From positions 91,315,648 through 91,379,647 of the forward strand of contig OZ020267.1 of assembly GCA_963971225.1 (NCBI GenBank): a stretch of 64,000 nucleotides of DNA, written 5' to 3'. The notes under the pieces are model-generated. The model was not told the origin of the DNA, did no database searches, and saw only the letters and a list, made by a program, of their open reading frames with translations. The position numbers were made by a program, and so were the translations under genes. Below are positions 36,470 to 59,762 of this stretch, one piece after another; position 1 is the stretch's first letter, and each line of letters starts with the position of its first letter. The stretch is from Melieria omissa (Eukaryota; Arthropoda; Insecta; Diptera; Ulidiidae).

Positions 36470-36479
36470 AAATAATTAT

Positions 36480-37393: not shown

Positions 37394-37404
37394 AATTGTT
37401 AAAA

Positions 37405-37735
37405 AAGACAGCCGCCGTGGCTCAGTTGGTTAGTGCGTTGGACCGCGAGTCGAAGGCAGCGACCCAGGTTCAAATACTGCCTTTAATAACACCTAAAAAA
37501 AAAAACGGGAAAACTCGTTTCTCTTTCGGTGGCTGTCCTCTCAGCTGGAAATGGCAAACCTCTAAGAGTAAAAATTGCCTATGAAAAAGCTCCCAACCTG
37601 CCGTTCGGAACCGGCATAAAACTGTAGGTCCCTTCCACCCGCGTACAAAATTCACACGCACAACACGGGTGGTTGCGGGAAGCTAGGCCTTAGTATCGCG
37701 TAAGCGGGCTGTCGTGCCAGTCAATTAAATTAATC
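37405..37735 (+). mobile_element. tRNA-derived SINE (source-like locus)
   Basis: Head contains Pol III promoter boxes: A box TGGCTCAGTTGG at about 37418 and B box GGTTCAAATAC at about 37468. A family body of about 240 bp follows (AGCTGGAAATGGCAAACC, CCAACCTGCCGTTCGGAACC) and then a short AT-rich tail. It is flanked by an 11-bp direct repeat AATTGTTAAAA at 37394-37404 and 37736-37746, the expected target duplication. Bases 37747-37921 to its right are unique flank, also present in inverted orientation at 47054-47227. Confidence 0.85.
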
Positions 37736-37921
37736 AATTGTTAAAATTAACTACAACTACTATTTCTGAATAAATTTCCTACCATTCATATATTTTTCTG
37801 CATCATTGAAATTGTCTTCTTATTTGTCAAAAAAGCAACTGACTTTTAAATTTTATGGAATGAAATTACCTGAATATTATTGTATCATAGCTTGTCGAAT
37901 AACTGTGAAGCACTAATATAT

Positions 37922-39357
37922 TGTTACGAATGCTAGTTCTAGTGGGCTAGTACTAGGGATCGCAATTTTTTGCCATTTTGCCATCCCGGGATTTTCGGGA
38001 TTGAAAAGTCAAATCCCGGGATCCCGGGATTTAATCCCGGGATTCAAATAACAAATTTTTTAAATAAAACAATTTTACCAAATTGCATAAATACTTGTTT
38101 ACAATATATTTACCATAAAAATGGACACAGTTTAATCACATTTGGGGTAGTTTTAAGATTTTTTATCTTGAATTTAATCACATTGTAAGGCGGAAAGGGA
38201 GGCAGTCGGTGTTGAGTCGTCGAAGTGGTTGGTTGTGCGCGGCACATCACCAAAATCCAGTTGTTATTTACAATCAGTTGTCAATTACATTCAAAATTGT
38301 CAGCTTAAATTTAAATCAAATAAATAAACATAGTCATCCTTGACAACATTTTGTTTAACTTAAAAGTTTTTCATTTGACATTTAACTTCAGTTTGATAAC
38401 ATTTTGTTTTATCCAAAAATGACACTTAAACATAACTTATTGCTTTGCATCAAATGTATCATAAAGTACGCATATACGCATATTTGATAAAAAAATAAAA
38501 TAGTTAATTTGTTAGTACTTTTAGTTTTACTTCGATTATTTCGATAAAAAAGTTAAGCGTTGTGATTAACTAAAAACTGAGATCTTAAAAATACTAAGGC
38601 ATTAAATGTTTTGCCCTCTAATCTAGAGCGAAATTTATTGCAAATAAACCCTGCTGAGAGAAAACATCTTTCAGATTCAACACTTGCTGGTTGAATGCTT
38701 AGTAAATAATTATAAGCCTTTTGCAAAAGACGCCCTCTATCCCCTCCCTCCTCCTTCAGATAAGGAATTGGGATTTTTTTCTTTTAAATTTATTTCATTT
38801 GAACTTTGAAGCATCTTTTGCAATCCCGAAAATCCCGGGATTAAAAGATTTGAATCCCGGGATTTTCGGGACTGGAAAAAGTCCGGGATCCCGAGATCCC
38901 GGGATCCCGGGATTGCGATGCCTAGCTAGTACGTATCAGTGGATTATGCAATTTGAAGATAAAACAACTTTAATTATCCAAACGCAGTCAATGAAAACCA
39001 ACAATCACTTTATTTCACCAATTTCACACTTTACTGTCTTTACACTTAATTATTTGCTTAATTACTCCGTATTGCACCTTCACTAGTCAAAATCAGACTG
39101 ACTCGCTGCGCCGCACCCGGCTGCCTTTCATACCTGTCCGGCCATCGCGCAAATCGTTCTCGCACATTCCGGAGTGGACTAAAGGTTTCCATGATGATCG
39201 CGACCATCATTGCCAGGTTGGACTAAAAGTTTCCATCATTGCCAGGTTGGACTAAAAGTTTCCCTTATTATCGCGGCCGTCGTTGCCAGATTGAATTATA
39301 GCACGGCGCGTAGTGACAGGGTTGCTTTGCACAGCGATAGACTGTCTTATCGTTACA
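37922..39357 (-). mobile_element. Solo LTR of element B, carrying a nested hAT element
   Basis: Plus-strand TGTTACGAA at 37922 to CGTTACA at 39357 is a complete element B LTR in reverse orientation once the hAT insertion (37954-38924 plus one 8-bp duplication) is removed, leaving about 457 bp. ATAT stands on both sides (37918-37921 and 39358-39361), a 4-bp target duplication. No internal element B sequence is present, so this is the product of LTR-LTR recombination. A unit of about 29 bp containing GTTGGACTAAAAGTTTCC is tandemly repeated inside. Confidence 0.88.
37954..38924. mobile_element. hAT-like element rich in ATCCCGGGAT palindromes
   Basis: 971 bp with imperfect inverted ends (TAGGGATCGCAAT on the left, TAGGCATCGCAAT reading in from the right) and a perfect 8-bp target duplication GCTAGTAC at 37946-37953 and 38925-38932. 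Both subterminal regions are packed with (A)TCCCGGGAT words. No transposase ORF, so it is non-autonomous. It is absent from the otherwise matching LTR at 46611-47053, which dates it after that copy was made. Confidence 0.9.
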
Positions 39358-39670: not shown

Positions 39671-39676
39671 AAAAAA

Positions 39677-40425: not shown

Positions 40426-40852
40426 TGTAACGATGAGACAGTCTGTCGCGGTGCAAAGCAACCCTGCCGCTGCGTGCCGTGCCATAACCCAATCTGGCAA
40501 CGACGGCCGCGATAGTAACTTTTAGTCCAACCTGGCAACGATGGTCGCGGTCATCAGGGAAACTTCTAGTCCAATCTGGCAACGTGCGAGAACGATCTGC
40601 GCGACGGCCGGACAGAGTATAAAAGGTGGCCAGATGCGGTGCAGCGAGTCAGTCTGGTTTTGACAAGTGAAGTTGCCACACGGAGTGATTAAGCAAATAC
40701 TTAAGTGTACGAACAGTAAAGTGTAAACTGTGAATAATAAAGTGACTGTTGGTTTATTTTATTGTCTGCGTTTAAGAAACTGACTGTGTTTTATTTTCAA
40801 ATTACACAATCCAGAGATACGCAACAGCCCACTAGACTTAGTATTCGTAACA
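40426..40852 (+). repeat. B1 5' LTR
   Basis: TGTAACG...CGTAACA ends. TATAAAA at 40618-40624 and an AATAAA-type signal near 40738 mark the promoter and polyadenylation region. Repeated words of the form AGTCCAACCTGGCAACGATGG lie in the U3-like part. Confidence 0.92.
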
Positions 40853-40854
40853 TT

Positions 40855-40872
40855 TGGTGTCAGAAGTGGGAT
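40855..40872 (+). promoter_or_regulatory. B1 primer-binding site (Leu-type tRNA)
   Basis: TGGTGTCAGAAGTGGGAT begins two bases after the LTR. This is the site type used with tRNA-Leu in several insect gypsy-like elements such as mdg3; the tRNA assignment is from memory. The same sequence stands next to the B4 5' LTR in reverse orientation (59318-59335). Confidence 0.8.
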
Positions 40873-40921
40873 TGTGGAAAATTGAAAATAACTAAATAAA
40901 TAAAATTATAAAAGTACGGAC

Positions 40922-42469
40922 ATGGTTAAACTCGAGCTGCTGAAGGTAGACCAGCTGAAGAGGGAGCTGGCTGCCTGGAATTTGCCGACTGCTGGCGGAA
41001 AGGTGGAGTTGCAGTTGCGCTTGCGAGAAGCATGTGAGGCACGAGGCGTCGATTGGACTGTGCACGAGTTCGGAGCGCAAGAACCAGAGGCGTCGGCCAA
41101 GGTGGAGGAGTCGCCGGCGGGTGCTGCTTCGCTACAGAGTACAGCTGCAGCGGCTGCGCCAATACAAGCGTTGGACATGAGCCAACTAATGGCTGCACTC
41201 AAAGGCATGTCGGCGCAGATGGAAACGGCGAATCGAGAAATGGCAGCGAAGCTGGAGACTGCAAATCGTGAGAATCGTGAGATGTCGGCGCGGATGGCAG
41301 CGAAAATGGAAACTGCGAATCAAGAGATGGCAGCGAAGCTGGAAGCTACGAATCTCGAAATTTCGGCAAAAGTCGAGACGGCGACTCAGGAAATATCGGC
41401 GCAAGTGGCAGAGCGAATGGAAGTCAAGCTTCAGGAAAATTCTGCGCGTTTGGAGCAGAAAGTGGAGGAAATCTCAGACAGGATTAATGGGAAAGTCGAG
41501 CACCTGGAGACGCGGGTAGAGCACTTGGATAAACGAGTCGACGACCTGGATGATGCCCTGAACAAACGAGTTGGCGACCTGGATGATTCCCTGAACAAAC
41601 GAGTTGATAGTCTGGAAGACTCGATGAACAGAAAAATGGACGAGCGGCTTAGGGAGGTACAGCCACGAGAGTGTTTGCCACCGGTTCAGGACGGTTTTGC
41701 TGGCAGAACAGAAGTGCCTACTTATGATGGTGCTGCGCCGTTCGATACATTTAAATTGCAATTCGACTTGGCTGCTTTGGAAAATCAGTGGACAGATATC
41801 AGGAAAGGTCGGAGGTTGGCACTGGCGCTGAAAGGTCCTGCGGCGGAGGTAATCAAATCAGTTCCAGAATGTTTAAGAAGTGATTACGGTGCCATCATGA
41901 GAGCGTTGGCAGCGAAGTATAGCAACGAGCACAACCATGCGCTATACTACTGTGAGCTGAAGAACCGCAAGCAAAGAGCCAACGAGGCGCTGCAGACATA
42001 TGCAGCAGACATTGAGCGGCTCGTACAGTTGTGCTACCCCAAATTTGGTGCTGATGATCTCGAGAGGATGAAGATTGAGTCGTTTATTGAAGGTCTTCAT
42101 GATCCAGAAACGCGTCGCAGTGCGTTGATGATGGGCAAGCCGACATTTAAGGAGACGGTGACCAGCGCGATGACATATGAAGCGGCATGGATTGGGAGCA
42201 CTCGGTATGCACCTGCAAGGATACGCCAGATTCAGGCGGACAACGACATTCCGATCCAGGCCATAAGCTCTGAGATACCGGGCAGGCCACGAGTGGTCTC
42301 CTCTAAAGTTGTCTGCTGGGTATGTGGCAAGCAGGGTCACATATCACGAGAGTGCCGCCAACGGAAGAGGCGTTCCCGTTCCCGATCGCAATCGCCTGAA
42401 GCGAGGAATACTGAAAATCGAGGCCCAGCCAACAATCGCAGGGCTGAGGACGGCGAGTCGTTAAACTAA
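40922..42469 (+). CDS. gag: B1 gag with SAP domain, coiled coil and CCHC knuckle
   Basis: A 515-residue gag. Residues 2-36 (KLELLKVDQLKRELAAWNLP onward) fit a SAP domain, a small helix-loop-helix that binds AT-rich DNA in chromatin proteins. Residues about 95-245 are a long heptad coiled coil built from near-repeats of ETANREMAAKL and then KRVDDLDD-type units. The capsid-like part (about 260-430) contains YDGAAPFDTFKLQFDLAALE and EALQTYAADIERLV. A single CCHC knuckle (CWVCGKQGHISREC) and an Arg/Ser-rich tail end the protein. The last codons read TTA AAC TAA, giving GTTAAAC before the stop, a possible -1 slip site into pol. Confidence 0.93.
   Translation: MVKLELLKVDQLKRELAAWNLPTAGGKVELQLRLREACEARGVDWTVHEFGAQEPEASAKVEESPAGAASLQSTAAAAAPIQALDMSQLMAALKGMSAQMETANREMAAKLETANRENREMSARMAAKMETANQEMAAKLEATNLEISAKVETATQEISAQVAERMEVKLQENSARLEQKVEEISDRINGKVEHLETRVEHLDKRVDDLDDALNKRVGDLDDSLNKRVDSLEDSMNRKMDERLREVQPRECLPPVQDGFAGRTEVPTYDGAAPFDTFKLQFDLAALENQWTDIRKGRRLALALKGPAAEVIKSVPECLRSDYGAIMRALAAKYSNEHNHALYYCELKNRKQRANEALQTYAADIERLVQLCYPKFGADDLERMKIESFIEGLHDPETRRSALMMGKPTFKETVTSAMTYEAAWIGSTRYAPARIRQIQADNDIPIQAISSEIPGRPRVVSSKVVCWVCGKQGHISRECRQRKRRSRSRSQSPEARNTENRGPANNRRAEDGESLN
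42460..42469 (+). promoter_or_regulatory. Possible -1 frameshift site at the gag end
   Basis: GTTAAAC directly precedes the gag TAA. GUUAAAC is a known functional variant of the X-XXY-YYZ heptamer. The pol frame is exactly -1 relative to gag and is open from here through 42559 and on to the protease, with no ATG required. The same bases are kept in the decayed B4 copy (57879-57888). Confidence 0.5.
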
Positions 42470-42558
42470 AACGGGTCAGCCCAGAGGGGCGTGAGCTGAT
42501 CCCCACAATCTGCCGCCCCACCGTCCTGGTCTCACAGCCGAAACGACAGCCCAGCAGC

Positions 42559-45500
42559 TTGACAATTGAAGGAAGGATAGATGGAAAGTTGTTCGTGTTG
42601 ACACTGGATACTGGAGCGTCACATTCGATCATAAAAAGGAGGCTGCTAAAGAACTGGGAACCGCTGCATGGCATACAGCTGCGGACTGCGACTGGCGAGC
42701 GCGCGCCGGTAAGAGGTAAAGTTACAAAAACGATTGCTATCGGCACCAGCAGCCTGGAACATGAGTTCATCGTCGCGGATATAATGGACGACGTGATTAT
42801 CGGCGTGGATTTCATGATTAGGCACGGTTTTACGCTGGACCTGAAGGAAAATGTGCTGAGATATGCCAACGTTGAATTCCCGCTGCACACCGGCTATGAG
42901 CGAAACGTGGCGGTAAGGAAGGTTGTATCGTGTCAACACAGGAGGATACCAGCGAATTCTGAGGCGATTGTGTGGGCAAAGGTGGACGAGGACGATGGGA
43001 CGAGTCGGCTGTGGGTAGTAGAAGCACCGAAACAAGGACACGACAACATCATCATCGGACGTACATTAGTGGAACCTAAAAATGGCAGAATACCAGTCAG
43101 AATACTGAACCCCCTGAATGCACCCAGATATGTCGGGAGAGATGAGGTAATTGGCGAATGTAAGGAAGCTGTAGCAGTGGTCAATTGCGAGAGTAGCCCG
43201 CCTGGAGGTGATAAGAAGAGCGGGTTTAACATGGACGCCATACCGCAGGAGAACCAGTGGATAAGCGAGTTGACGGCCAAGCAGAAACAGAAGGCGAGGT
43301 CACTCCTGCAGCACTATGGGTCAATATTTGCGGCAGAAGCAGGCGGAAGAACAGCCATAGTGAAGCACAACATCGACACCGGAAGTGCAAAACCGATTCG
43401 CCAACCGCCACGACGAGTTCCTCTGGCCAAGAGGGAGGAGGTCACAAATTTGATCGAGAACATGCAGAAAGACAAGGTCATAGAGCCTTCTTCGGGCCCC
43501 TGGTGCTCGCCGGTCGTGCTAGTCAAGAAAAACGATGGCAGTACCCGGTTTTGTGTGGACTATCGGAAGCTCAATGATGTGACCAAGAAGGACAGTTATC
43601 CACTACCTCGGATCGATGACACCCTGGACACACTGTCAGGCACGCAGTGGTTCTCCACGCTCGACTTACGCAGCGGCTATTGGCAGGTAGAGCTTGCAGA
43701 CAAGGACAAGGAGAAAACGGCTTTCAGTGTTGGCGATGGTTTGTGGCAGTTCACCGTCATGCCGTTTGGACTCTGCAACGCACCAGCAACATTCGAGCGG
43801 CTAATGGAACGCGTGTTAAAAGGGCTGCATTGGCGGACGTGTCTGGTGTACCTCGACGACATAATCGTAATGGGTAAAAGCTTCGACGACCACCTGGGAA
43901 AGCTGAAGGAGGTATTTGAGCGGATACAACAAGCCGGGCTTAAACTCAACCCAAAGAAGTGCTCGCTGTTCCAAAAGGAGGTCAAGTATCTGGGCCATAC
44001 GGTTTCCGCCCGCGGAGTGCATACGGATGAAGGCAAAATCACGGCGGTGAAGGAGTGGCCCCGACCACGCAATCTACACGAACTCCGCAGTTTCCTGGGC
44101 CTGTGTACATACTACCGCCGATTTGTTCCGGGATTCGCGAACATAGCCAGCAGCTTGCACAAACTGACGAAAAAGAGCCAAGCTTTCGAGTGGAGCGAGG
44201 AGCAGGAACAGGCTTTTGCACGTCTGAAGGAAAAACTGTGCAGTGCTCCAATTCTGGCCTTCCCCGTGCCTGGGGAGATGTTTGTGCTGGATACAGATGC
44301 AAGCGGGAATAGTATTGGCGGTGTGCTATCACAGATAATAGACGGCCAGGAACAAGTGATAGCGTACTACAGTAGGGTTCTATCGAAACCGGAGCGCAAC
44401 TACTGTGTGACACGGAGAGAACTGCTGGCGGTATTGGACTGCGTAAAACACTTCCACAAATACCTGTATGGACAAAAGTTTCGCCTGCGCACAGATCATG
44501 CGGCATTGAGATGGCTCCTGAACTTTAAAGATCCTGAAGGGCAATTGGCGCGGTGGATCGAGCGACTGCAGAGCTACGACTACACGATAGAGCATCGCAA
44601 GGGCAGTAACCATGGAAATGCCGATGCCTTGTCACGCCGTCCGTGCAAAGTCGAATGCAGGCAATGCTCGCGAGCCGAAAGCAAAGAACAGATAGTGGAC
44701 GTCCGGTTGGTAAGCGTTATGCCAGAGGAAGAGTGGTCTGCGGAGAGGCTACAAAAAGACCAGCATGAGGATGCGGATCTTGCAAAAATCGTCGAAGGCA
44801 AGGAGCAAGGCGCACGTCCAGACTGGCAGGAGATGGCTGGTGAAAGCCCGATCGCTAAGGCTTACTGGGCACAGTGGAAAAGTTTGCGGCTGAAGGAAGG
44901 CTGCCTGTACCGCGAATGGGAGAGCGCGGATGGTCGTACCAGCAACCCCCTAATGGTAGTGCCGAAAAGCAGAATCAACGAGGTCATCGAGGCATACCAT
45001 AACGACTCCAGTGGAGGGCACCTAGGCATCACCAAAACCGTCGCCAAAATAAAAAGACGATTCTACTGGGTAGGATGTCAGGAGTCTGTAGCCGAGTGGA
45101 TTAAGAGCTGCGACCGATGTTCAGCCGCGAAAGGGCCGACAAGAAAATCTCGAGGCCGCATGCAGCAGTACAACGTGGGAGCGCCCTTCGAGCGGATTGC
45201 TATGGACGTCGCCGGCCCATTCCCAACTAGCACTCAAGGCAACAAATATGTGCTGGTCGTAATGGATTACTTCAGCAAATGGCCCGAAGTGTACCCTATT
45301 CCTAACCAGGAGGCCACCACGATCTCGGAAAAGCTGGTAAACAACTGGGTAGCCCGGTTCGGAGTTCCGTTGGAGTTGCACTCAGATCAAGGCCGGAATT
45401 TCGAGTCTGCGGTATTCAAGGAAGTGTGTGGGCTGCTGGGGATAAAGAAAACGCGTACCACTCCTTTGCACCCACAGTCCGACGGTATGGTGGAACGCTT

Positions 45501-46065
45501 TAACCGGACGCTGGAGGAATACCTGCGGAAAGTGGTAGGCAGGAATCAAAAGGATTGGGACACGCATATCCCCCTGTTCCTGATGGCGTATAGGTCAGCC
45601 CCGCACGACACGACATCACTCACTCCAGCCCGAGCAGTGTTCGGCACAGAGTTGCGGTTACCCGCTGACTTGAAGTTCGGGGTAGTCAGCACGACGGGAG
45701 GCGCTAAGACGGAATACGTGGCCAATAAGCGGGCGGAACTGGAGGAAATTCACCAATTTATAAGGGGCCGCACCAAACTGGTCAGCGATAAGGCGAAAGC
45801 CAGATACGATCTACGGGCCAACTCAGCAGGGTTCCAAGAAGGCGATTTGGTAATGCTCTACAACCCGCAGCGGAGGAAAGGTTTGTCTCCGAAACTTCAA
45901 GCGTCATGGGAAGGACCTTACGAAGTCGTGACTAGGATTAACGACGTGGTATACCGGATTCAACGTTGCAGCAATAGAGGCGCTAAGCTGAAGGTAGTCC
46001 ATTTGGAGCGCCTGGCGCCTCATCACAGCGGAGCCTCGGCACTTGTTCGGGACGAACAAGTCTAA
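42559..46065 (+). CDS. pol: B1 pol polyprotein (PR-RT-RH-IN), intact
   Basis: 1168 residues counted from 42559; that codon is TTG and the frame is open further upstream, so translation probably enters from gag. Retropepsin LDTGAS is at about residues 15-20. RT has LPRIDDTLDTLSGTQWFSTLDLRSG and catalytic YLDD near 430. RNase H begins near 575 (LDTDASGN). Integrase has the HHCC segment at about 815-855 (CDRCSAAKG), then D, D and E in AMDVAGPF (about 880), HSDQGRNFES (about 942) and DGMVERFNRTL (about 977), and a GPY-type C-terminal module (SWEGPYEVVTRIND, about 1115). All catalytic residues seen are standard and there is no internal stop. Confidence 0.95.
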   Translation: MTIEGRIDGKLFVLTLDTGASHSIIKRRLLKNWEPLHGIQLRTATGERAPVRGKVTKTIAIGTSSLEHEFIVADIMDDVIIGVDFMIRHGFTLDLKENVLRYANVEFPLHTGYERNVAVRKVVSCQHRRIPANSEAIVWAKVDEDDGTSRLWVVEAPKQGHDNIIIGRTLVEPKNGRIPVRILNPLNAPRYVGRDEVIGECKEAVAVVNCESSPPGGDKKSGFNMDAIPQENQWISELTAKQKQKARSLLQHYGSIFAAEAGGRTAIVKHNIDTGSAKPIRQPPRRVPLAKREEVTNLIENMQKDKVIEPSSGPWCSPVVLVKKNDGSTRFCVDYRKLNDVTKKDSYPLPRIDDTLDTLSGTQWFSTLDLRSGYWQVELADKDKEKTAFSVGDGLWQFTVMPFGLCNAPATFERLMERVLKGLHWRTCLVYLDDIIVMGKSFDDHLGKLKEVFERIQQAGLKLNPKKCSLFQKEVKYLGHTVSARGVHTDEGKITAVKEWPRPRNLHELRSFLGLCTYYRRFVPGFANIASSLHKLTKKSQAFEWSEEQEQAFARLKEKLCSAPILAFPVPGEMFVLDTDASGNSIGGVLSQIIDGQEQVIAYYSRVLSKPERNYCVTRRELLAVLDCVKHFHKYLYGQKFRLRTDHAALRWLLNFKDPEGQLARWIERLQSYDYTIEHRKGSNHGNADALSRRPCKVECRQCSRAESKEQIVDVRLVSVMPEEEWSAERLQKDQHEDADLAKIVEGKEQGARPDWQEMAGESPIAKAYWAQWKSLRLKEGCLYREWESADGRTSNPLMVVPKSRINEVIEAYHNDSSGGHLGITKTVAKIKRRFYWVGCQESVAEWIKSCDRCSAAKGPTRKSRGRMQQYNVGAPFERIAMDVAGPFPTSTQGNKYVLVVMDYFSKWPEVYPIPNQEATTISEKLVNNWVARFGVPLELHSDQGRNFESAVFKEVCGLLGIKKTRTTPLHPQSDGMVERFNRTLEEYLRKVVGRNQKDWDTHIPLFLMAYRSAPHDTTSLTPARAVFGTELRLPADLKFGVVSTTGGAKTEYVANKRAELEEIHQFIRGRTKLVSDKAKARYDLRANSAGFQEGDLVMLYNPQRRKGLSPKLQASWEGPYEVVTRINDVVYRIQRCSNRGAKLKVVHLERLAPHHSGASALVRDEQV

Positions 46066-46076
46066 GTGGTGGGCAG

Positions 46077-46503
46077 TGTAACGATGAGACAGTCTGTCGC
46101 GGTGCAAAGCAACCCTGCCGCTGCGTGCCGTGCCATAACCCAATCTGGCAACGACGGCCGCGATAGTAACTTTTAGTCCAACCTGGCAACGATGGTCGCG
46201 GTCATCAGGGAAACTTCTAGTCCAATCTGGCAACGTGCGAGAACGATCTGCGCGACGGCCGGACAGAGTATAAAAGGTGGCCAGATGCGGTGCAGCGAGT
46301 CAGTCTGGTTTTGACAAGTGAAGTTGCCACACGGAGTGATTAAGCAAATACTTAAGTGTACGAACAGTAAAGTGTAAACTGTGAATAATAAAGTGACTGT
46401 TGGTTTATTTTATTGTCTGCGTTTAAGAAACTGACTGTGTTTTATTTTCAAATTACACAATCCAGAGATACGCAACAGCCCACTAGACTTAGTATTCGTA
46501 ACA
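46077..46503 (+). repeat. B1 3' LTR
   Basis: Starts TGTAACG right after AGTGGTGGGCAG, the likely polypurine tract, and ends CGTAACA. No difference from the 5' LTR was found by eye over 427 bp. Confidence 0.92.
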
Positions 46504-46527: not shown

Positions 46528-46577
46528 TGTTACGAATACTACGTCTAGTGGGCTGTTACGTATCACTGGATTGTAAT

Positions 46578-47577
46578 AATAATAATAATAATTGATAATT
46601 GATAATTGTCACTACGCGCCGTGCTATAATTCAATCTGGCAACGACGGCCGCGATAATAAGGGAAACTTTTAGTCCAACCTGGCAATTATGGCAACTTTT
46701 AGTCCAACCTGGCAATGATGGAAACTTTTAGTCCAACCTGGCAATGATGGTCGCGATCATCATGGAAACCTTTAGTCCCCTCCGGAAAGTGCGAGAACAA
46801 TCTGTGCGATGGCCGGACAGGTATAAAAGGCAGCCGGGTGCGGCGCAGCGAGTCAGTCTGATTTTGACTAGTGAAGGTGCAACACGAAGTAATTAAGCAA
46901 ATAATTAAGTGTAAAGACAGTAAAGTGTGAAATTGGTAAAATAAAGTGATTGTTGGTTTTCATTGACTGCGTTTGGATAATTAAAGTTGTTTTATCTTCA
47001 AATTGCATAATCCACTGATACGTACTAGCCCACTAGAACTAGCATTCGTAACAATATATTAGTGCTTCACAGTTATTCGACAAGCTATGATACAATAATA
47101 TTCAGGTAATTTCATTCCATAAAATTTAAAAGTCAGTTGCTTTTTTGACAAATAAGAAGACAATTTCAATGATGCAGAAAAATATATGAATGGTAGGAAA
47201 TTTATTCAGAAATAGTAGTTGTAGTTAATTTTAACAATTGATTAATTTAATTGACTGGCACGACAGCCCGCTTACGCGATACTAAGGCCTAGCTTCCCGC
47301 AACCACCCGTGTTGTGCGTGTGAATTTTGTACGCGGGTGGAAGGGACCTACAGTTTTATGCCGGTTCCGAACGGCAGGTTGGGAGCTTTTTCATAGGCAA
47401 TTTTTACTCTTAGAGGTTTGCCATTTCCAGCTGAGAGGACAGCCACCGAAAGAGAAAACGAGTTTCCCGTTATTTTTTTTTTTTTTGGTGTTACTACATG
47501 CAGTATTCGATCTTGCGTCGCTCTGCATGCGACTCGCTGGACCGCGCACTAACCCACTGAGCCACGGCGGCTGCTGG
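46578..47577 (-). mobile_element. Retroposed SINE with transduced flank and solo-LTR sequence
   Basis: Read on the minus strand from 47577: tRNA-derived SINE head (A box near 47565, B-box-like GATCGAATAC near 47512), SINE body, then about 175-230 bp of the same unique flank that follows the SINE at 37735, then about 440 bp of an element B LTR, ending in an (ATT)n tail at 46578-46612. The 10-bp ACTGGATTGT stands at both edges (46568-46577 and 47578-47587) as target duplication within the B4 LTR. A head, a transduced 3' flank, a simple tail and a duplication together indicate LINE-mediated retroposition of a read-through transcript. Confidence 0.85.
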
Positions 47578-47964
47578 ACTGGATTGTGCAATTTGAAAAT
47601 GAAATAACTTTAATTTTTCCAACGCAGCCAATTCAAAACCAACAGTCACTTTATTATTCACAGTTTTACACTTTACTGTTCGTACACTTAAGTATTTGCT
47701 TAATTACTCCGTGTGGCAACTTCACTTGTCAAACCCAGACTGACTCGCTGCGCCGCACCCGGCTGCCTTTTATACCTGTCCGGCCATCGCGCAGATCGTT
47801 CTCGCACATTCCCGAGTGGACTAAAGGTTTCCATGATGATCGCGACCATCGTTGACAGATTCGACTAAAAGTTATTATCGCGGCCGTCGTTGCCACATTG
47901 AATTATAGCACGGCGCGAAGCGGCAGGGTTGCTTTGCACAGCGACAGACTGTCTTATCGTTACA
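47578..47964 (-). repeat. B4 3' LTR, larger part
   Basis: Continues the LTR begun at 46528-46577 after the SINE-unit insertion, ending CGTTACA at 47964 next to the pol 3' end. Confidence 0.88.
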
Positions 47965-47975
47965 CTGCCCACCAC

Positions 47976-48256
47976 TTAGACTTGTTCGTCCCGAACAAGT
48001 GCCGAGGCTCCGCTGTGATGAGGCGCCAGACGCTCCAAATGGACTACCTTCAGCTTAGCGCCTCTATTGCTGCAACGTTGAATCCGGTATACCACGTCGT
48101 TAATCCTAGTCACGACTTCGTACGGTCCTTCCCGTGACGCTTGAAGTTTCGGAGACAAACCTTTCCTCCGCTGCGGGTTGTAGAGCATTACCAAATCGCC
48201 TTCTTGGAACCCTGCTGAGTTGGCCCGTAGATCATATCTGGCTTTCGCCTTATCGC
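47976..48256 (-). pseudogene. pol: B4 pol, C-terminal end (separated by LINE)
   Basis: Encodes the last 90 or so residues of integrase, including the GPY-type module, with the normal stop at 47976-47978. The reading frame is interrupted at 48256 by the LINE; it resumes at 54576 with the same 13-bp TTCGCCTTATCGC repeated. Confidence 0.88.
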
Positions 48257-48548
48257 GGGGATCTGGGTTTGGGTCCATAAGGTAAAGCTCCTGACTGCAC
48301 GGATGGGGACATGGTCTGCATCTTCGGCTGCGATCCTTATGGGTACCAGGCCAAGCGGACTCAACGCCTCCACGTAGGTTGCTTCTGTAACCGGGCGGTC
48401 CCTGGGCGGCTGTTGGAGCCAGTCTTCTCAGCCGGCTAAGTTTTAGCGGCGGAAATCCAAGAGCGTCTGACCCACAGTGGGCGGCTCCTTGGTCAGCGTC
48501 TGATCCCCATGTTAGGGGCGGCTGTTCTTCTCATCATCTTTTGGTGGC

Positions 48549-50873
48549 GTGATAGATGTCAAAGAAACGCCACAGGGGAAGGCGACCCCCTTCATCAAAA
48601 CCATTCTGGAGGGCTCCCATAAGGACTCTTTTACGGTGCAGGGAGTCGGATCCCCAGTACCGGCGGTAGACAGTGAGCGAGCGGGCTGTCTGGCGTCGTT
48701 ATCCAACGACCGCTTAGGCTGTGCAGCGGGACCCCAGGCTGTGCAGTCTACAAATGCTACTGGGAAGCAGGAGGCGCCCAAACCTGCATTAAGCAGGCAA
48801 AAGGCGCAGGAGTCCACAGCACAGGATGGTCCCTCACTTTCGGGGGTGGTGGCTCAGCTCCGGGGCCTTCGACTCGACGCTGCTATAGAGGGGGAATCTA
48901 TGATTCTCTCGCAAAGTAGCGGCGCCGGGTCGGTGGACTCTGAGGCGGAGGCGGCACTCCTGGAGGAGGGAGACCGACCTGCGGCCACTGGCTCCACTCC
49001 TGGAATCTTACCGACGGGGGAACGCAAGGCGAGCAGTGCTGCGAAGAAAGCCAGAAATGGCTACCGGCGCTCTCTTGCGTTTCTCCGTAGAGTGAGCAAA
49101 GAGCCTGGATCCTTGTCCGATAAGGAGAAGGATCTGGTAAGGAAGCACCAGAAGATCGTGGCTAGATTCGAGAAGAAACAGGCGGCGATTTCTGGTGCAA
49201 AATGCACGATCGTTGCAGCAACGCCTGGTGACAGTGCCACGGCTGCACGGCCCACCGAAGGTGCAGTGGAGGCGGAAAAGCCTAGAAACAAGGCCACATC
49301 CTCCGTCACTGCACGGGTGGGAGTAAAGACGGGGACGGCAAAGCCTGGAAACAGTGCTGCGGTCGCCCCGTCAAGTGTGACTGGTCTGAGAGCCACCACC
49401 AACGATTAAGCGATGTGAAACTGGGAGAGTAAGCCGATTTTTGTGGGTTTTTTGCAATTCACGTACACAGTCCGTGTGTGTTGGCAGTGATCAGCTCTTC
49501 ACTGTGTCTGCTCTTTTCCCGATATTAGGGATTAGGGATTCCTTACAATTATTTGCTTTTTAAAGTATGTTCTCATTAATTTTATGAATTAAATGCCAAC
49601 ACATGAACTTTTTTGGTTTAATTATGTAAATATTAATGAAAAATATACCAAAGAAAACCAAGCTAAATGCATTGAATATGACGGGGTCAATTGTCGTCCT
49701 TTGTATTTCGCATTTCTTCATTTAGCGAATCTCTAACGATCAGGTATGATTTTTTTGCTAAATGCTGTAGTTGACCGCAGGGTTGTTTTTTTGAATGCAG
49801 CTTATAAAGTCTTAGTTTAATTGAATTAAAAGCATACCCAAAGATTATTTTGACGCTTTTGGACAATAATATATTTTTCTACTCAATTTTATACAAACGT
49901 ATTACGAAATGGCACCAAAAATATACAAATAAAAAGATAAATTTCTTTGGTCACAAAAAATTACTCACACCAGCTACACTGGCAATTTGAAATGAACTAG
50001 AACAACAACCCCGTTTTAGAAATTTATATGGAGGAAAAAGTACGTTCCTGATCAAGCTTGGGGCCTACTAGTAGGCCCCAAGGTTGCAATTTTGCAATAA
50101 TATTAGTGTAATTCTGTGCATGTATTTCTACCGGCTCTCCCAGTTTCACATCGCTTAATCGTTGCCCACCACCTCTTCAAGGCCCACTTCCACCACGGTG
50201 GAAAAGGCCGTAAAAAGGGGAAGATCGGGTGACGATCAGCCGACAGGGGAGGGGAAAAAGCTGAAGCCCTCAGCTAGCTTCTCTTCCCCACAAGAGTTGC
50301 AGATAGCCGTGGTGGACCGGAGCGATCCTGATGGAAAAATTCGCCCGGAAAACTGGCTTTCTGTAGAGGCGCGCATTCTGCGAGCGATGCTCGAGGCGGC
50401 TGACGGAGAAATTGACTTCGACGGCGCTGGCTGGCAGAAGGGTGTCAAAATCGTCGGTTGTGGGAACAAGGAGTCCCTCAACTTCTTGGTGCGCAATATC
50501 GGCGGTCTTGAGCCCCTCTGGCAGGGGGCGAAACTCGAGGTCATACCTCGTGACCGTCTGCCACTCCGGCCTATCGTCACACTGTGGGTCCCCCCTCCAG
50601 TTATGGAGGACGCCGACACGGTGAAGCTGATTGGCCGGCAGAACAGCGGCCTTAATACTGGAGAGTGGAGAATTGTATCCTCCACTACTTGTAAAAATGA
50701 GGCGGGCAAGGACATCGTGATCGCGGTAGATCAATCGTCCTTTTGCCCATCTGCGGGACTCCCTGGGAGTTGTTAAGTTCGGTTTGGGTTCCCTCAAAGC
50801 TCGCTTCCCTAACAAGGAGCGCGCCACACAAGGGAAGGCTGAAGGTAGTGCAGATAAAAATGCACCACTCTAA
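48549..50873 (+). pseudogene. Loa/I-type LINE ORF1, interrupted by a MITE
   Basis: First part 48549-49409: low-complexity, Ala/Ser-rich, with a basic segment (ARNGYRRSLAFLRRVSKEPG). Second part from 50159: continues after the MITE with KRGRSGDDQPTGEGKKLK and a folded-looking region (QIAVVDRSDPDGKI, NFLVRNIGGLEPLW, RPIVTLWVPPP). If the MITE is removed, the frame still meets TAA at the insertion site, so an in-frame stop existed or arose there. A further frameshift lies near 50740, after which the other frame reads to a stop at 50871-50873. No CCHC knuckle is seen. The protein would be the RNA-binding partner of ORF2. Confidence 0.7.
49410..50154. mobile_element. 745-bp TTAA-flanked MITE with subterminal hairpin
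   Basis: Perfect 20-bp inverted ends GCGATGTGAAACTGGGAGAG (49410-49429 and complement at 50135-50154), with TTAA on both sides (49406-49409, 50155-50158). TTAA duplication fits piggyBac or Kolobok type. A perfect 26-bp palindrome at 50057-50082 (half-site CTTGGGGCCTACT) lies near the right end. AT-rich interior, no ORF. Confidence 0.85.
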
Positions 50874-53800
50874 AGCCGCCACCCACGACCTTATGCAGTT
50901 CCTTGAGGACACTGGAGTTGACTTGGCTCTAATTCAGGAACCCTGAATCGTAGGAAACAGGGTTTGTGGGTTAGATTCAGGTCAATTTAGATTGCTTCAT
51001 TCACGCGGTGAAGGTAAGATACGAGCCTGTATTGTGTACAGAAAGTGCATTAATTTGTTTCTTTTGTCTCATTACAGTACTGGTGACCTGTGTGTGGCTG
51101 CATGCGAACGACGCGATGGGCGAGACTTGATCCTGTCGTCCGCATACGTGCCATTCGAAGAGGAGGAACCACCGCCGAAGGAAGTCCGGGACCTTGCTGC
51201 GCACGCCCGATCACGGAGGCTCGACCTTATCATCGGGTGTGATGCCAATGCACACCACATGCTGTGGGGAAGTTCCGACACCAACAGTAGGGGTGAGTCA
51301 ATTTTTGAGTTTCTTCTAGGCTCTAACCTTGTGCTGTGCAATAGAGGCAATACGCCGACTTTCCACAATAGGGTTAGGGAGGAAGTCATAGATATTACCT
51401 TAGTTACCGACTCCAACACTATCTCCGTGGTCGACTGGAAAGTACTGACGGAATGTTCGTTCTCGGACCACAACCGTATAGTCTTTTCAGTGGCCATAGA
51501 GGTTGGATGTCCACAAACTTATAGGAATCCGAGAAAGACTAACTGGCCTAAATTCAGTGCACTAGTTTCTCAGAAACTGGCATCGCGCAAAGCGATCGCT
51601 ACATTCGAGAGAAACAACATTGACAGGTCAGTTGGTCTTCTAACGAAAGTGCTTAACAAGTCTTTTAATGAATCTTGTCCTAAAAGTCGAGCTCCACGGA
51701 AAACCAACGCGGTGTGGTGGACCCCAGAGCTAAGACAACTTAGAACAGATACCAGATGTCTCTTCAATAAGGCTAAACTTAGCCGAACTGAAGAAGACTG
51801 GGAGCCTACAAGGCTAGCTTTAATAAGTTTAAGAAGACTATTAGGGCGGCCAAGCGCGATAATTGGAGGAAGTACTGTGAATCCCTCGACAATGTCAACG
51901 AGGCCGCCAGACTTCGCAAGGTGCTAGCCGGGGCATCACATACTCCTAGCAGCATTACGAAGTCTGACGGCTCGTGGACAGAATCGAGGGAGGAGCTTCT
52001 AGAGACTCTCATGAACACCCACTTTCCCGGCTGCACGAGTGTTGTTGAGACGACCACGCCTCATAGACAGCACTCGTCACGACCGGATGCTTTAGTTCAG
52101 GGGAATATCGATGAGGTCAAAGTGGCATGGGCGATAGACACCTTCAACCCGTACAAATCTCCGGGTCCCGATGGTGTCATTCCGGCTATGCTGCAATGGT
52201 CTAAGGAGGCAGTGGTCAAAGTCTTGGTGCGAATCTTTCGGGAATCTCTCCAACAGGGCTATGTACCACGCGCCTGGAAAGAGGTTAAGGTGGTGTTCAT
52301 CCCCAAGGCGGGGAAGTCAAACCACATCACTGCAAAAGACTACAGACCGATCAGCCTGTCATCGTTCTTTCTTAAGACTTTGGAGAGGCTGGTGGATGTC
52401 TATGTCAGGGGAGTGGCACAGTCCAGGGGACTCTGCAGGACGCAACATGCGTATTGCAGGGAAAAATCTGTAGACAGCGCCTTGCATGAGGTCGTTCAGA
52501 CGATCGAAAAATCGCTGAGCGTCAAGGAGTATACGTTAGCCGCTTTCCTCGATATTGAGGGGGCCTTTAATAACGTCACTCTAGAGGCAATAACCAGTGC
52601 ACTTAGAAAATTCGAAGTGGACGAGAAAGTGGTGAGGTGGACCAGCGATATGCTTAGTAGCAGAAGGGTTCACTCCAGCCTAGGCTCGTGCTCGGTGAGG
52701 AGGTTAACCACAAGGGGCACACCTCAGGGGGGCGTCCTTTCGCCTCTGCTGTGGCTGCTTGTGATAAACAACATCCTCGAGATCTTCGAATCCAGGAGGC
52801 TGCGAGTAGTAGCATATGCGGACGACGTCACTATCCTGATCCCTGGAAAATTTCTCTCCACCATCAGTGATCTCATGCAGTCTGCCTTAGAAGAACTCTC
52901 TAGGTGGGCAGAGCATAACGGTCTAGGAGTTAACCCCTCAAAGACGGTTATGGTACTGTTCACCCGGAGATACAAAATACCGGAGTGTAGGCTGCCGAAA
53001 CTCAGCGGCATCATTATCACCCTCTCACCCGAGGTGAAATACCTTGGCACCACACTCGACTCCAAGCTTTCTTGGAGACGCAACGTGGAAGAGCGGGCGA
53101 AGAAGAGCCTGAATGCCTTCGACGTCTGTCAGAAGGCCTTCGGGAAAAAGTGGGGATTGCGGCCGAGCATTGTCCACTGGATGTATACAGCGATCATTCG
53201 GCCGATCTTATGTTACGGAGCCATTGTCTGGTGGCCGGCTACGGACACCAGGTCCTTGGCGACGCAACTGATGAAGGTGCAGAGACTGGCGGCTATGGGA
53301 ATAGCAGGAACCGTCAAAAGCACCCCCCAGGCAGGCCTAGAGATGATTCTACATCTCCACCCAATAGAGCAGTTCATTAAGTGCTGTGCCGCTAAAGGCG
53401 CTCTCAGGCTGAGAGAGGCCAACTTGTGGAAAGAGCACGCTTATGGACACTCTGGGATCCTAAGGTCATTTACGAGGCCAGGTACGGTACATCAATGAGA
53501 TTCCTGTACGGACTATCTGATTCCATACCTGGATTTTGAGTCGCGCGCACTTACCTCCTTTCCCTCATGGGAAGAATGGGGACTTACAAGTGTGACAAGA
53601 GACGCCTCCATCACCATCTTCACAGATGGTTTCAAGATGGAGGAAGGTACAGGAGCTGGTCTCCACTCAGATGTACTAGGGGCTCAACGGTCTTTCAGAC
53701 TCCCGGACCTCTGTAGCATCTTTCAGGCGGAGATTTACGCAATCTGGAAAGCTGCTGAATTAATCCGCGACAGCGGATTATCACCCACGAATATCACAAT

Positions 53801-54455
53801 CTGTGTGGATAGTCAGGCAGCCCTTAAAGCGCTGGAATCAGCGACTGTGAAATCAAAGGTAGTGCAGAGTTGTCGCACTGCACTTCGCGGCATCGGACAT
53901 CATCGAGTCACTCTCTACTGGGTTCCGGGCCACTCTGGAGTAGCAGGAAACGAGGCAGCGGATGAGATGGCAAGAAAGGGGGTCGCCCTGCCTCTCACCG
54001 AAGTGGATAACTCTGTGCTCCCTCCGATATCTGCCCTGTATTTGCGTATTGACAGGTTGAGCAAAACTTACATCGAGTCCTCATGATGGAGCAAAACTGA
54101 TTGCAGTACCTGCCGGGCAATATGGCCTTCCCTTTCCGTGAGGAAAACACGATTTGTACTGTCCCTGAGTCGAACCTCTATTAGGCAGCTTGTTGGAGTC
54201 ATTACTGGACACTGCGCCATTGGATCTATGCTGGTCAAATGGTGCCTCTCGTCCAGTGATGTCTGCAGAAGCTGTGGAGATGAGGAAGAAGTGGAAACGA
54301 TCCAACACTACCTGTGCCACTGCCCGGCTCTGCAGGAACGCCGACTCCCTACCTTGGGGTCAAGGTTCCTGGTAGACTTGGCCTGCGCAGCAGTAGTTGA
54401 AATATCGGATCTACTCTCCTTCATCAAGAGGTCGAATAGGTTTGCCCCGAACTGA
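50860..54455 (+). pseudogene. Loa/I-type LINE ORF2 (EN-RT-RNase H), inactivated
   Basis: Begins ATG at 50860, overlapping ORF1. Endonuclease motifs: ALIQEP near 50925, GCDANAHHMLWGS near 51240 and SFSDHN near 51460. RT: SPGPDGVIPAML near 52165, IEGAFNN near 52560, RGTPQGGVLSPLLW near 52715 and catalytic YADD near 52820. RNase H: FTDGFKMEEGTGAG near 53620 and VDSQAAL near 53810, ending WVPGHSGVAGNEAAD near 53930. A C-x2-C...H-x3-C segment (CRSCGDEEEVETIQHYLCHC) follows near 54270. Disabling changes: TGA at 50944-50946 where Trp is expected after QEP, a frameshift near 51813, TGA at 53496-53498 and TGA at 54084-54086. The RT style (PISLSSFFLKTLERLVD, HFPGC) recalls the Loa clade. Confidence 0.85.
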
Positions 54456-54575
54456 GAGCCACTGGTTAGCTCCGGAATCTTCCATGAAGGGATTCACAAT
54501 GGGCCATTTTGGCCTCCGAGTGGAAGTGCTGCCCTTGGGACGCACACACCCTTCCCTACCTAACCTAACCTAACC

Positions 54576-57500
54576 TTCGCCTTATCGCTGACCAGTTTGG
54601 TGCGGCTCCTTATAAACAGGTGAATTTCCTCCAGTTCCGCCCGCTTATTGGCCACGTAGTCCGTCTTAGCGCCTCCCGTCGTGCTGACTACCCCGAACTT
54701 CAAGTCAGCGGGTAACCGCAACTCTGTGCCGAATACTGCTCGGGCTGGAGTGAGTGATGTCGTGTCGTGCGGGGCTGACCTATACGCCATCAGGAACAGG
54801 GGGATATGCGTGTCCCAATCCTTTTGATTCCTGCCTACCACTTTCCGCAGGTATTCCTCCAGCGTCCGGTTAAAGCGTTCGACCATGCCGTCGGACTGTG
54901 GGTGCGAAGGCGTGGTACGAGTTTTCTTTATCCCCAGCAGCTCACACCCTTCCTTGAATACCGCAGACTCGAAATTCCGGCCTTGATCTGAGTGCAACTC
55001 CAACGGAACTCCGAACCTGGCTACCCAGTTGTTTACCAGCTTTTCCGAGATCGTAGTGGCCTCCTGGTTAGGAATAGGGTACACTTCGGGCCATTTGCTG
55101 AAGTAATCCATTACAACCAGCACATATTTGTTGCCTTGACTGCTAGTTGGGAATGGGCCGGCGACGTCCATAGCAATCCGCTCGAAGGGCGCTCCCACGT
55201 TGTACTGCTGCATGCGGCCTCGAGATTTTCTTGTCGGCCCTTTCGCGGCTGAACATCGGCAGCTCCTAATCCACTCGGCTACAGACTCCTGACAACCTAC
55301 CCAGTAGAATCGTCTTTTTATTTTGGCGACGGTTTTGGTGATACCCAGGTGCCCTCCACTGGAGTCGTTATGGTATGCCTCGATGACCTCGTTGATTCTG
55401 CATTTCGGCACTACCATTAGAGAGTTGCTGATCCGACCATCCGCGCTCTCCCATTCGCGGTACAGGCATCCTTCTGTCAGTCGCAGACTTTTCCACTGTG
55501 CCCAGTAAGCCTTAGCGATTGGGCTTTCACCGGCCATCTCCTGCCAGTCTGGACGTGCGCCTTGCTCCTTGCCTTCGACGATTTTCGCAAGATCCGCATC
55601 CTCACGCTGGTCTTTTTGTAGCCTCTCCGCAGACCACTCTTCCTCTGGCATGACGCTGACCAACCGGACGTCCACTATCTGTTCTTTGCTTTCGGCTCGC
55701 GAGCATTGCCTGCATTCAACTTTGCACGGACGGCGGGACAAGGCATCGGTATTTCCATGGTTACTGCCCTTGCGATGCTCTATCGTGTAGTCGTAGCTCT
55801 GCAGTCGCTCGATCCACCGCGCCAATTGCCCTTCAGGATCTTTAAAGTTCAGGAGCCATCTCAATGCCGCATGATCTGTGCGCAGGCGAAACCTTTGTCC
55901 ATACAGATATTTTTGGAAGTGTTTCACGCAGTCCAATACCGCCAGCAGTTCCCTCCGTGTCACACAGTAATTGCGTTCCGGTTTCGATAAAACCCTACTG
56001 TAGTACGCTATCACCTGTTCCTGGCCGTCTACTATCTGTGATAGCACACCGCCAATACTATTCCCGCTTGCATCTGTATCCAACACAAACATCTCCCCAG
56101 GCACGGGGAAGGCCAGAATTGGAGCACTGCACAGTTTTTCCTTTAGACGTGCAAAAGTCTGTTCCTGCTCCTCGTTCCACTCGAAAACTTGGTTCTTTTT
56201 CGTCAGTTTGTGCAGGCTGCTGGCTATGTTCGCGAATCCCGGAACAAATCGGCGGTAGTATGTGCACAGGCCCAGGAAACTGCGGAGTTCGTGTAGATTG
56301 CGTGGCCGGGGCCACTCCTTCACCGCCGTGATTTTGCCTTCATCCGTATGTACTCCGCGGGCGGAAACCGTATGACCCAGATACTTGACCTCGTTTTGGA
56401 ACAACGAGCACTTCTTTGGGTTGAGTTTAAGCCCAGCTTTTTGTATCCGCTCAAATACCTCCTTCAGCTTTCCCAGGTGGTCCTCGAAGCTTTCACCCAT
56501 TACGATTATGTCGTCGAGGTACTCCAGACACGTCCGCCAATGCAGCCCTTTTAGCACGCGTTCCATTAGCCGCTCGAATGTCGCTGGTGCGTTGCAGAGT
56601 CCAAACGGCATGACGGTGAACTGCCACAAACCATCGCCAACACTGAAAGCCGTTTTCTCCTTGTCCTTGTCTGCAAGCTCTACCTGCCAATAGCCGCCGC
56701 GTAAGTCGAGCGTGGAGAACCACTGCGTGCCTGACAGTGTGTCCAGGGTGTCATCGATCCGAGGTAGTGGATAACTGTCCTTCTTGGTCACATCATTGAG
56801 CTTCGGATAGTCCACACAAAACCGGGTACCGCCATCTTTTTTCTTGACTAGCACGACCGGCGAGCACCATGGGCTCGAAGAAGGCTCTATGACCTTGTCT
56901 TTCCGCATGTTCTCGATCCAATTTGTGACCTCCTCCCTCTTGACCAGCGGAACTCGTCTTGGCGGTTGGCGAAACGGTTTTGCACTTCCAGTGTCGATGT
57001 TGTGCTTCACTATGGCTGTTCTTCCGCCTGCTTCCGCCGCAAATATTGACCCATAGTGCTGCAGGAGTGACCTCGCCTTCTGTTTCTGCTTGGCCGTCAA
57101 CTCGCTGCTCCACTGGTTCTCCTGCGGTATGGCGTCCATGTTAAAACCGCTCTTCTTATTACCTCCAGGCGGGCTACTCTCGCAATTGACCACTGCTACA
57201 GCTTCCTTACACTCGCCAATTACCTCATCTTTCCCGACATATCTGGGTGCATTCAGGGGGTTCAGTATTCTGACTGGTATTCTGCCATTTTTAGGTTCCA
57301 CTAATGTACGTCCGATGATGATGTTGTCGTGTCCTTGTTTCGGTGCTTCTACTACCCACAGCCGACTCGTCCCATCGTCCTCGTCCACCTTTGCCCACAC
57401 AATCGCCTCAGAATTCGCTGGTATCCTCCTGTGTTGACACGATACAACCTTCCTTACCGCCACGCTTCGCTCATAGCCGGTGTGCAGCGGGAATTCAACG

Positions 57501-57789
57501 TTGGCATATCTCAGCACATTTTCCTTCAGGTCCAGCGTAAAACCGTGCCTAATCATGAAATCCACGCCGATAATCACGTCGTCCATTATATCCGCGACGA
57601 TGAACTCATGTTCCAGGCTGCTGGTGCCGATAGCAATCGTTTTTGTAACTTTCCCTCTCACCGGCGCGCGTTCGCCAGTTGCAGTCCGCAGCTGTTCTTA
57701 TGCAGCTTCCTTTTTATGATCGAATATGACGCTCCAGTATCCAGTGTCAACACGAACAACTTTCCATCTATCCTTCCTTCAATTGTCAA
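54576..57789 (-). pseudogene. pol: B4 pol, main part, frameshifted
   Basis: Same domains as B1 pol. The protease DTG motif (near 57740) survives, but about 22 nt are missing just after it (near 57697), shifting the frame; 57661-54589 is then open for over 1000 codons through RT, RNase H and most of integrase. In RT the segment before YLDD reads CLEYLDD. In the integrase zinc segment the CDRC of B1 has lost its Asp and reads CRC, altering the cysteine spacing. The C-terminus is displaced to 47976-48256 by the LINE. Confidence 0.88.
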
Positions 57790-57878
57790 GCTGCTGGGCT
57801 GTCGTTTCAGCTGTGAGACAAGGACGGTGGGGCGGCAGATTGTGGGGATCAGCTCACGCCCGTTTGGGCTGACCCGTT

Positions 57879-59257
57879 TTAGTTTAACGACTCGCCGTCC
57901 TCAGCCCTGCGATTGTTGGCTGGTTCGATTGTCAGTATTCCTCGCTTCAGGCGATTGCGATCGGGAACGGGAACGCCTCTTCCTTTGGCGGCAGTCTCGT
58001 GATATGTGGCTCTGCTTGCCACATATCCAGCAGACAACTTTTAGAGGAGACCACTCGTGGCCTGCCCGGTATCTCAGAGCTTATGGCCTGGATCGGAATG
58101 TCGTTGTCCGCCTGAATCTGGCGTATCCTTGCAGGTGCATACCGAGTGCTCCCAATCCATGCCGCTTCATATGTCATCGCGCTGGTCACCGTCTCCTTAA
58201 GTGTCGGCTTGCCCATCATCAACGCACTGCGACGTGTTTCTGGATCATGAAAACCTTCAAGTTGTACTTGAAACGACTCAATCTTCATCCTCTCGAGATC
58301 ATCAGCACCAAATTTTGGGTAACACAACTGTACGAGCCGCTCAATGTCTGCTGCATATGTCTGCAGCGCCTCGTTGGATCTTTGCCTGCGGTTCTTCAGC
58401 TCACAGTAGTATAGCGCATGGTTGTGCTCGTTGCTATACTTCGCTGCTAATGCTCTCAGGATGGCACCGTAATCACTTCTTAAACATTCTGGAACTGATT
58501 TGATTACCTCCGCCGCAGGACCTTTCAGCGCCAGTGCCAACCTCCGACCTTTCCTGATATCTGTCCACTGATTTTCCAAAGCAGCCAAGTCGAATTGCAA
58601 TTTAAATGTGTCGAACGGCGCAGCACCATCATAAGTAGGCACTTCTGTTCTGGCAGCAAAACCGTCCTGAACCGGTGGCAAACATTCTCGTGGCTGTACC
58701 TCTCGAAGTCGTTCGTCTATCTTTCTGTGCATCGAATCTTCCAGACTGTCAACTCGTTTGTTCAAGGACTCATCCAGGTTGTCAACTCGTTTGTCCCAAT
58801 TGTCCATGCGCGTCTCAAGATGCTCAACTTTCCCGTTCAGCCTATTGGAAATTTCCTCTACCTTCTGCTCTATGCGCGCAGAATTTTTCTCAACTTTTGC
58901 CGAAATTTCAAGATTCGTCGTTTCCACCTTCGCTGCCATTTCTCGATTCGCCGTTTCCATTTGCGCCGACATGCCTTTGAGTGCAGCCATTAGTTGGCTC
59001 ATGTGCAATGCTTGTATTGGCGCATCCGCTGCAGCTGTACTCTGTAGCGAAGCAGCACTCGCAGGCGACTCCTCCACCTTGGCCGACGCCTCTAGTTCTT
59101 GCGCTCCGAACTCGTGCACAGTCGAATCGACGCCTCGTGCCTCACATGCTTCTCGCAAGCGCAACTGCAATTCCACCTTTCCGCCAGCAGTCGGCGAATT
59201 CCAGGCAGCCAGCTCCTTCTTCAGCTGGTCCACCTTCAGCAGCTCGAGTTTAACCAT
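57879..59257 (-). pseudogene. gag: B4 gag, shortened coiled coil and broken CCHC
   Basis: SAP-like N-terminus retained (KLELLKVDQLKKELAAWNSP). The coiled coil is much shorter than in B1, with several heptad units missing. The capsid-like region is intact. One extra A in the run at about 58030-58033 shifts the frame just before the CCHC knuckle, giving an abnormal C-terminus ending near 57947. The GTTAAAC TAA gag end is still readable at 57879-57888 in the original frame. Confidence 0.88.
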
Positions 59258-59337
59258 GTCCGTGCTTTTATAATTTTATTTATTTAGTTTTTTCTTGTTT
59301 ATTTTCAATTTTCCACAATCCCACTTCTGACACCAAA

Positions 59338-59762
59338 TGTTACGAATACTACGTCTAGTGGGCTGTTACGTATCACTGGATTGTGCAATTTGAAAATGAA
59401 ACAACTTTAATTATTCCAACGCAGCCAATTCAAAACCAACAGTCACTTTATTATTCACAGTTTTACACTTTACTGTTCGTACACTTAAGTATTTGCTTAA
59501 TTACTCCGTGTGGCAACTTCACTTGTCAAAACCAGACTGACTCGCTGCGCCGCATCCGGCTGCCTTTTATAGTTGTCAGGCCATCGCACAGATCGTTCTC
59601 GCACATTCCCGAGTGGACTAAAGGTTACCCTGATGATCGCGACCATCGTTGCCAGATTGGACTACAAGTTATTATCGCGGCCGTCGTTGCCACATTGAAT
59701 TATAGCACGGCGCGAAGCGGCAGGGTTGCTTTCCACAGCGACAGACCTGTCTTATCGTTACA
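59338..59762 (-). repeat. B4 5' LTR
   Basis: 425 bp, TGTTACG...CGTTACA on the plus strand, followed on the gag side by the Leu-type primer-binding site (59318-59335, minus strand). Adjacent ATAT at 59763-59766 is the outer target duplication. Confidence 0.9.

Follow-up and report, generated by a model that had tools for sequence, protein, structure and literature searches.

LINE-1 transductions have been reported in dogs (PMC12458276). In humans, one Alu insertion that brought along 99 extra nt on the 3' side of the Alu was listed as 'transduction or recombination', and Alu transcripts typically stop at a downstream TTTT (PMC4859970). Other insect SINEs are described in PMC8010984, and filler DNA and templated insertions in PMC4423477 and PMC2895639. 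In flies, gene conversion among transposable elements (TEs) is common and is said to run generally between close sequences, with a median tract of 135 bp (PMC11226609). Among the literature matches listed, considered by title and the start of the abstract, none dealt with a long 3' transduction by an insect SINE, and we do not claim that none exists. Here, we analysed a 64,000-nt stretch of the Melieria omissa genome (the window), in which an earlier note had read a SINE with its downstream DNA as a 3' transduction.

The composite unit, with its SINE, carried flank, LTR piece and tail between duplications, is confirmed as real, and is inserted within the 3' LTR of the minus-strand Ty3-like element B (Table 1). 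Its end at 47577 stood as the earlier note had placed it, while its start is 46575, 3 bp away from the 46578 given there. The 10-bp duplications on its two sides are perfect (10/10 bp), in agreement with the proposed target duplication. On the + strand of the window, ACTGGATTGT is present at three places (46565-46574, 47578-47587 and 59375), and on the other strand at none. Considering that the copy at 59375 is single and lies in the uninterrupted 5' LTR of element B, this LTR serves as an empty-site reference, and an origin of the ten bases as part of an ordinary LTR repeat was ruled out. When the flanks, about 390 bp each, were compared with each other by BLAST, no significant similarity was found beyond the borders of the unit (best E = 0.78 on the 5' side and 0.062 on the 3' side). 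A segmental inversion or duplication was ruled out by this result, and no segmental inversion is needed to account for the large inverted repeat, as had been suggested. The insertion, its duplication, the empty site and the lack of outside similarity are direct observations. An assembly or haplotype artefact that fused two repeats would be conceivable in a repeat-rich region with several near-identical copies, but it is highly improbable given the perfect duplication, the clean empty site and the borders that coincide with element ends.

Table 1. Features of the composite unit, its donor locus and the surrounding elements (window coordinates).
Feature	Position	Strand	Details
Composite unit	46575..47577	-	1003 bp; SINE head and body, donor flank, antisense LTR piece, tail
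Target duplication, left copy	46565..46574	+	ACTGGATTGT
Target duplication, right copy	47578..47587	+	ACTGGATTGT
Tail of unit	46575..46606	-	(AATTATC)2(ATT)n; starts beside CA common to LTR
B-type LTR piece	46607..47053	-	447 bp; antisense to the LTR's own reading
Extra LTR repeat unit in copy	46688-46716		one unit, 29 bp
LTR patch	46779-46938		160 bp, 9 differences
Donor unique 3' flank, copied	47054..47228	-	175/175 identical (BLAST)
SINE body and first bases of donor 3' duplication	47237..47457	-	221/221 identical to donor
SINE head	47458..47573	-	unlike donor head; 13 mismatches/111 columns plus indels in the most lenient alignment
Donor SINE	37405..37735	+	between AATTGTTAAAA copies (37394-37404, 37736-37746)
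Donor unique flank	37747..37921	+	
Donor solo LTR	37922..39357	-	B type; ATAT on both sides; copied as far as 39318
hAT-like element in donor LTR	37954..38924	.	duplication GCTAGTAC; missing from copy
Ty3-like element B	46528..59762	-	duplication ATAT; 3' LTR 46528-47964 holds the unit; 5' LTR 59338-59762 is the empty-site reference
Young Ty3-like element B1	40426..46503	+	duplication ATAC; LTRs identical (427/427); between donor and copy
LINE interrupting element B	48257-54575		13-bp duplication TTCGCCTTATCGC

The order SINE, flank and LTR is the same at the donor locus and in the unit, except that the unit is without the hAT-like element, and the two aligned over 931 ungapped columns, which agrees with the order reported earlier. 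About 620 bases in the unit were copied from this locus a few kb away. The unique flank has two matches in the window, itself and 47228-47054 (175/175; E cut-off 1e-3). As previously described, the unit carries the SINE, this flank with the donor's own AATTGTTAAAA duplication, and antisense LTR sequence, for which the earlier estimate of about 440 bp was close to the 447 bp found. The carried DNA is contiguous with its source, with 519 identical nt running from the SINE body through AATTGTTAAAA into the flank and LTR. The match between unit and donor ends inside the LTR at GTGACA, position 39318, after which the unit reads ATTATCAATTATCAATTATTATT. The hAT-like element in the donor LTR has CCCGGGAT-rich ends and an 8-bp duplication, and is labelled as hAT from the duplication length alone.

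Donor and unit are inverted relative to each other, and their nearest ends are 7.3 kb apart now. With B1 and its duplication removed the spacing is 1177 bp, so that the two would have been ~1.2 kb apart at the time of copying if B1 came later. Newly inserted LINEs or SINEs are not known to settle close to the locus that they came from. As such, the fact that donor and unit are neighbours favours a local DNA process, with the weight given to proximity being a matter of judgement, as only a nearby source is visible in a comparison limited to the window.

The pol ORFs of both B and B1 matched Pfam RVT_1, RT_RNaseH and rve in that order, which corresponds to reverse transcriptase, RNase H and integrase. 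The gag-like ORF of B1 has a SAP-domain match at its start, and a search of viral contigs for relatives of the B1 pol ORF gave one pattern match, unconfirmed by tblastn. The LINE within element B has endonuclease, RT and RNase H matches, and its 3' end reads CCTAACCTAACCTAACC, which we take to resemble insect telomere repeats. Elsewhere in the window, near-identical direct repeats (6088 bp at 99.8% and 3087 bp at 99.8%), ~9 kb apart at 5212-23509, may form a tandem array of a single LTR element. The gag-like ORF there, at 8777-10327 (minus), has an N-terminal RING-finger match, and the inverted repeat of ~420 bp at 61884-62921 (98.6%) is perhaps another nested element.

The window holds two copies of the SINE, whose head had been called tRNA-derived. 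Neither head matched a tRNA family in Rfam at E up to 10, and ARAGORN with default settings found no tRNA in the window. When its threshold was lowered, ARAGORN called the donor head at 70% and 60%, not at 80%, and the copy's head at none of four thresholds. Scored against box consensus strings, the A box had no mismatch in both heads and the donor B box had one mismatch at the expected place, while the best B box of the copy had three mismatches at another place, with three also at the expected place by eye. Taken together, these sequence features lend weak support to a tRNA origin of the head. In a wider Rfam search of 36000-49000, ten matches were obtained at E up to 1, and 10/10 were below the gathering scores of their families. 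An exact SINE-body pattern and a SINE-head pattern each had 0 matches in the viral contig collection and 0 in the prokaryote collection. The tail was compared with the end of the donor SINE, and an equal score was reached in 265/5000 shuffles and in 25/546 AT-rich stretches; the likeness is not clearly above chance. The only ATT run of at least four units in the window is the unit's own tail. Within the window, no LINE ending in (ATT)n was found as a partner; the two LINE-type elements examined end in poly(A) and in CCTAA units.

Identity between donor and unit is uneven along the unit. In the full alignment there were 31 mismatches, 22 of which fell in the head. The head count is inflated by gap placement: BLAST gave 16 head mismatches (528/553 identical, 9 gaps), whereas aligning the head by itself with affine gaps gave 13/111 plus indels, and the lowest count (13) was used in the tests. 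The next 519 nt, comprising the rest of the SINE, the flank and the first part of the LTR, had no mismatch (0/519; Fisher p ~9e-11 against the head), and a mismatch-free gap this long was found in 0/20,000 permutations of the 31-mismatch alignment. Past position 133, over 805 columns, all nine mismatches lie inside 160, which was as tight in 6/100,000 permutations, and the remaining LTR stretches are identical between donor and unit. When this patch was compared by eye with four further LTRs in the window, of which two are mutually identical, private changes were seen in donor and unit alike, which looks like a contribution from a third LTR copy. Unit and donor are thus a mosaic, in which the identity of the transferred stretch and the differing head were observed directly. 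When the SINE part was compared with its source along the whole length, the head failed to match, although later conversion could hide a match. Within the differing heads, TTGGACCG of the donor (37438-37445) is replaced in the copy (47537-47544) by CGGTCCAG, which is nearly its reverse complement, perhaps by chance.

The earlier note had favoured a single read-through transcript captured by a LINE. An RNA read through from the donor SINE should bear the donor head, and since the head differs, a single-RNA model is not supported. The end signals and the proximity of the two loci also speak against it. Upstream of the copy's end the donor holds a T5 run, two T4 runs, ATTAAA and AATAAA; of the 931 positions scanned, those past 444 hold no further T4+ run or AATAAA/ATTAAA, and none lies near the donor point where the (ATT)n tail joins. 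What stands of the transduction reading is a SINE unit flanked by a target duplication and carrying the donor 3' flank; what falls is its origin from one read-through RNA. The carried source duplication does not discriminate, as it is equally expected from outward copying of DNA.

The transcript could be retained if later conversion is added, such that a true 3' transduction was followed by replacement of the head and patch, in donor or copy, by other family members, or by homogenisation of the arms. A 3' transduction is marked by a duplication, a complete 5' end, a tail and the source's own duplication brought along (PMC4859970), all seen here, and the head (117 bp) and patch (160 bp) match the fly conversion tract size (median 135 bp; PMC11226609). 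However, at least two additional events would be required, the T runs and polyadenylation motifs would lie inside the donor transcript, and the RNA would have to stop at GTGACA, with no such signal nearby and no seed there for the (ATT)n tail. Landing beside the donor would also have to be random, and we regard this combination as quite unlikely.

To place the head in time, we used the host element. As the unit lies inside one LTR of B, the divergence of the LTR pair bounds the age of the insertion unless the LTRs were converted, and the two LTRs differ at 14/424. Measured against this pair, the head has diverged more (Fisher p 0.001) and the 519-nt stretch much less (p 1.2e-5), and the patch fits the level of the pair (p 0.23). 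Plain divergence of the head after insertion was rejected on this basis, assuming unconverted host LTRs. If the two LTRs were not homogenised, a foreign head is more likely than mutation after insertion, the counts being small. Since the divergence of the head is not significantly different from that of the patch (p 0.11), the unit may also be older, with its middle homogenised later between the inverted arms, which would allow an older RNA-mediated event.

Based on the mosaic, with its mismatched head beside an identical stretch, we favour ectopic copying of DNA into a resident SINE followed by joining to that SINE's own tail, with a rough probability of 0.48. In this sequence of events, a SINE (X) that had a head and an (ATT)n tail of its own would first have inserted into the 3' LTR of element B and generated the 10-bp duplication. 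A later break or stalled fork within X would have been repaired by ectopic copying, in which the end bearing the X head paired with the homologous inverted SINE at 37.4 kb. Synthesis would have proceeded outward for ~850 nt through the donor SINE body, the flank and part of the adjoining LTR, and the new end would have been joined to the remaining tail of X at a 2-base CA overlap. The 160-bp LTR patch would be a separate conversion. The prior residence of X, the copying at the DNA level, the assignment of the tail to X and the separate conversion of the patch are inferred.

Several features are consistent with this ectopic copying. The transferred stretch starts inside SINE homology and runs one way outward, with one join hidden in that homology and the other at the CA overlap, of which the two bases alone are no evidence. 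As the copying would be at the DNA level, the T5 and T4 runs, ATTAAA and AATAAA in the donor become irrelevant. The short distance between donor and unit also fits, as does TE gene conversion in flies, given how common it is and that it is said to favour close sequences (PMC11226609). Against ectopic copying, the LTR patch needs a further event, the likeness of the tail to the donor SINE's end is at a chance-like level, and filler DNA at repaired transposon excisions in rice is 1-123 bp (PMC4423477), far shorter than the present stretch. The paper that describes templated insertions in human cells takes these to be RNA-derived (PMC5110952), and RNA-level TE conversion is also reported in flies (PMC11226609); both count against a DNA-level origin.

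If template switching took place during one retrotransposition event, that event would explain at once why the head differs and why the SINE 5' end is complete, and where the tail and the 10-bp duplication came from. A LINE enzyme that had primed on the tail of a SINE (or LINE) would have moved to an RNA from the donor locus running antisense to the B LTR and copied the LTR, the flank and the SINE body. Homology would then have taken the enzyme across to another SINE RNA, at whose 5' end it finished. Chimeras, including triple ones, are known for several LINE clades (PMC4476161, PMC13174262). For this event, the donor would have to yield an RNA antisense to the LTR, the enzyme would have to switch twice, and the product would have to land by chance no more than 7.3 kb from the donor; a third source would still be needed for the LTR patch. 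We consider it rather unlikely. On such a course, one target-primed event with two template switches would have produced a new composite retroelement in an animal genome, made of a SINE head, genomic flank, antisense LTR and SINE-type tail, in an SVA-like birth outside the LINE-1 world; that outcome seems unlikely to us.

The mismatched front end of the unit suggests that it is not one simple copied transcript, and makes a template jump or repair of the local DNA the likelier cause. If local repair, and not read-through RNA, gives rise to SINE-headed units that carry flank, counts of SINE transduction that depend on a target duplication and a carried source duplication would be partly wrong, and comparing the head with the donor helps to tell local repair from read-through RNA. 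The locus also shows that a large inverted repeat can form without segmental inversion, although a single case proves no general rule.

Every part of the unit is of a known kind, while the combination is a single instance, a one-off genome scar. With LINE-1 and SVA 3' transductions it shares the target duplication, the 3' tail and a unique donor flank carried with the donor's own duplication (PMC4859970), and it differs in being headed by a SINE, in a head unlike the donor's, in lacking a polyadenylation end and in lying beside its donor. The human Alu case with 99 extra nt (PMC4859970) has the same ambiguity as the present unit. LINE template-switch chimeras similarly fuse a small-RNA 5' part to other sequence with one duplication around all (PMC4476161, PMC13174262), whereas here the fused part is genomic flank and antisense LTR, and one switch would fall within SINE homology. 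Templated insertions also bring in a patch from another locus, with a target duplication in class 1 and microhomology in class 2 (PMC5110952); here the marks of both classes are mixed, the donor is local and one join would be by homology. Gene conversion among fly TEs likewise leaves mosaic tracts of ~100-200 bp between copies (PMC11226609), whereas in the present unit the copying left the shared repeat for unique DNA and would have had to end by joining.
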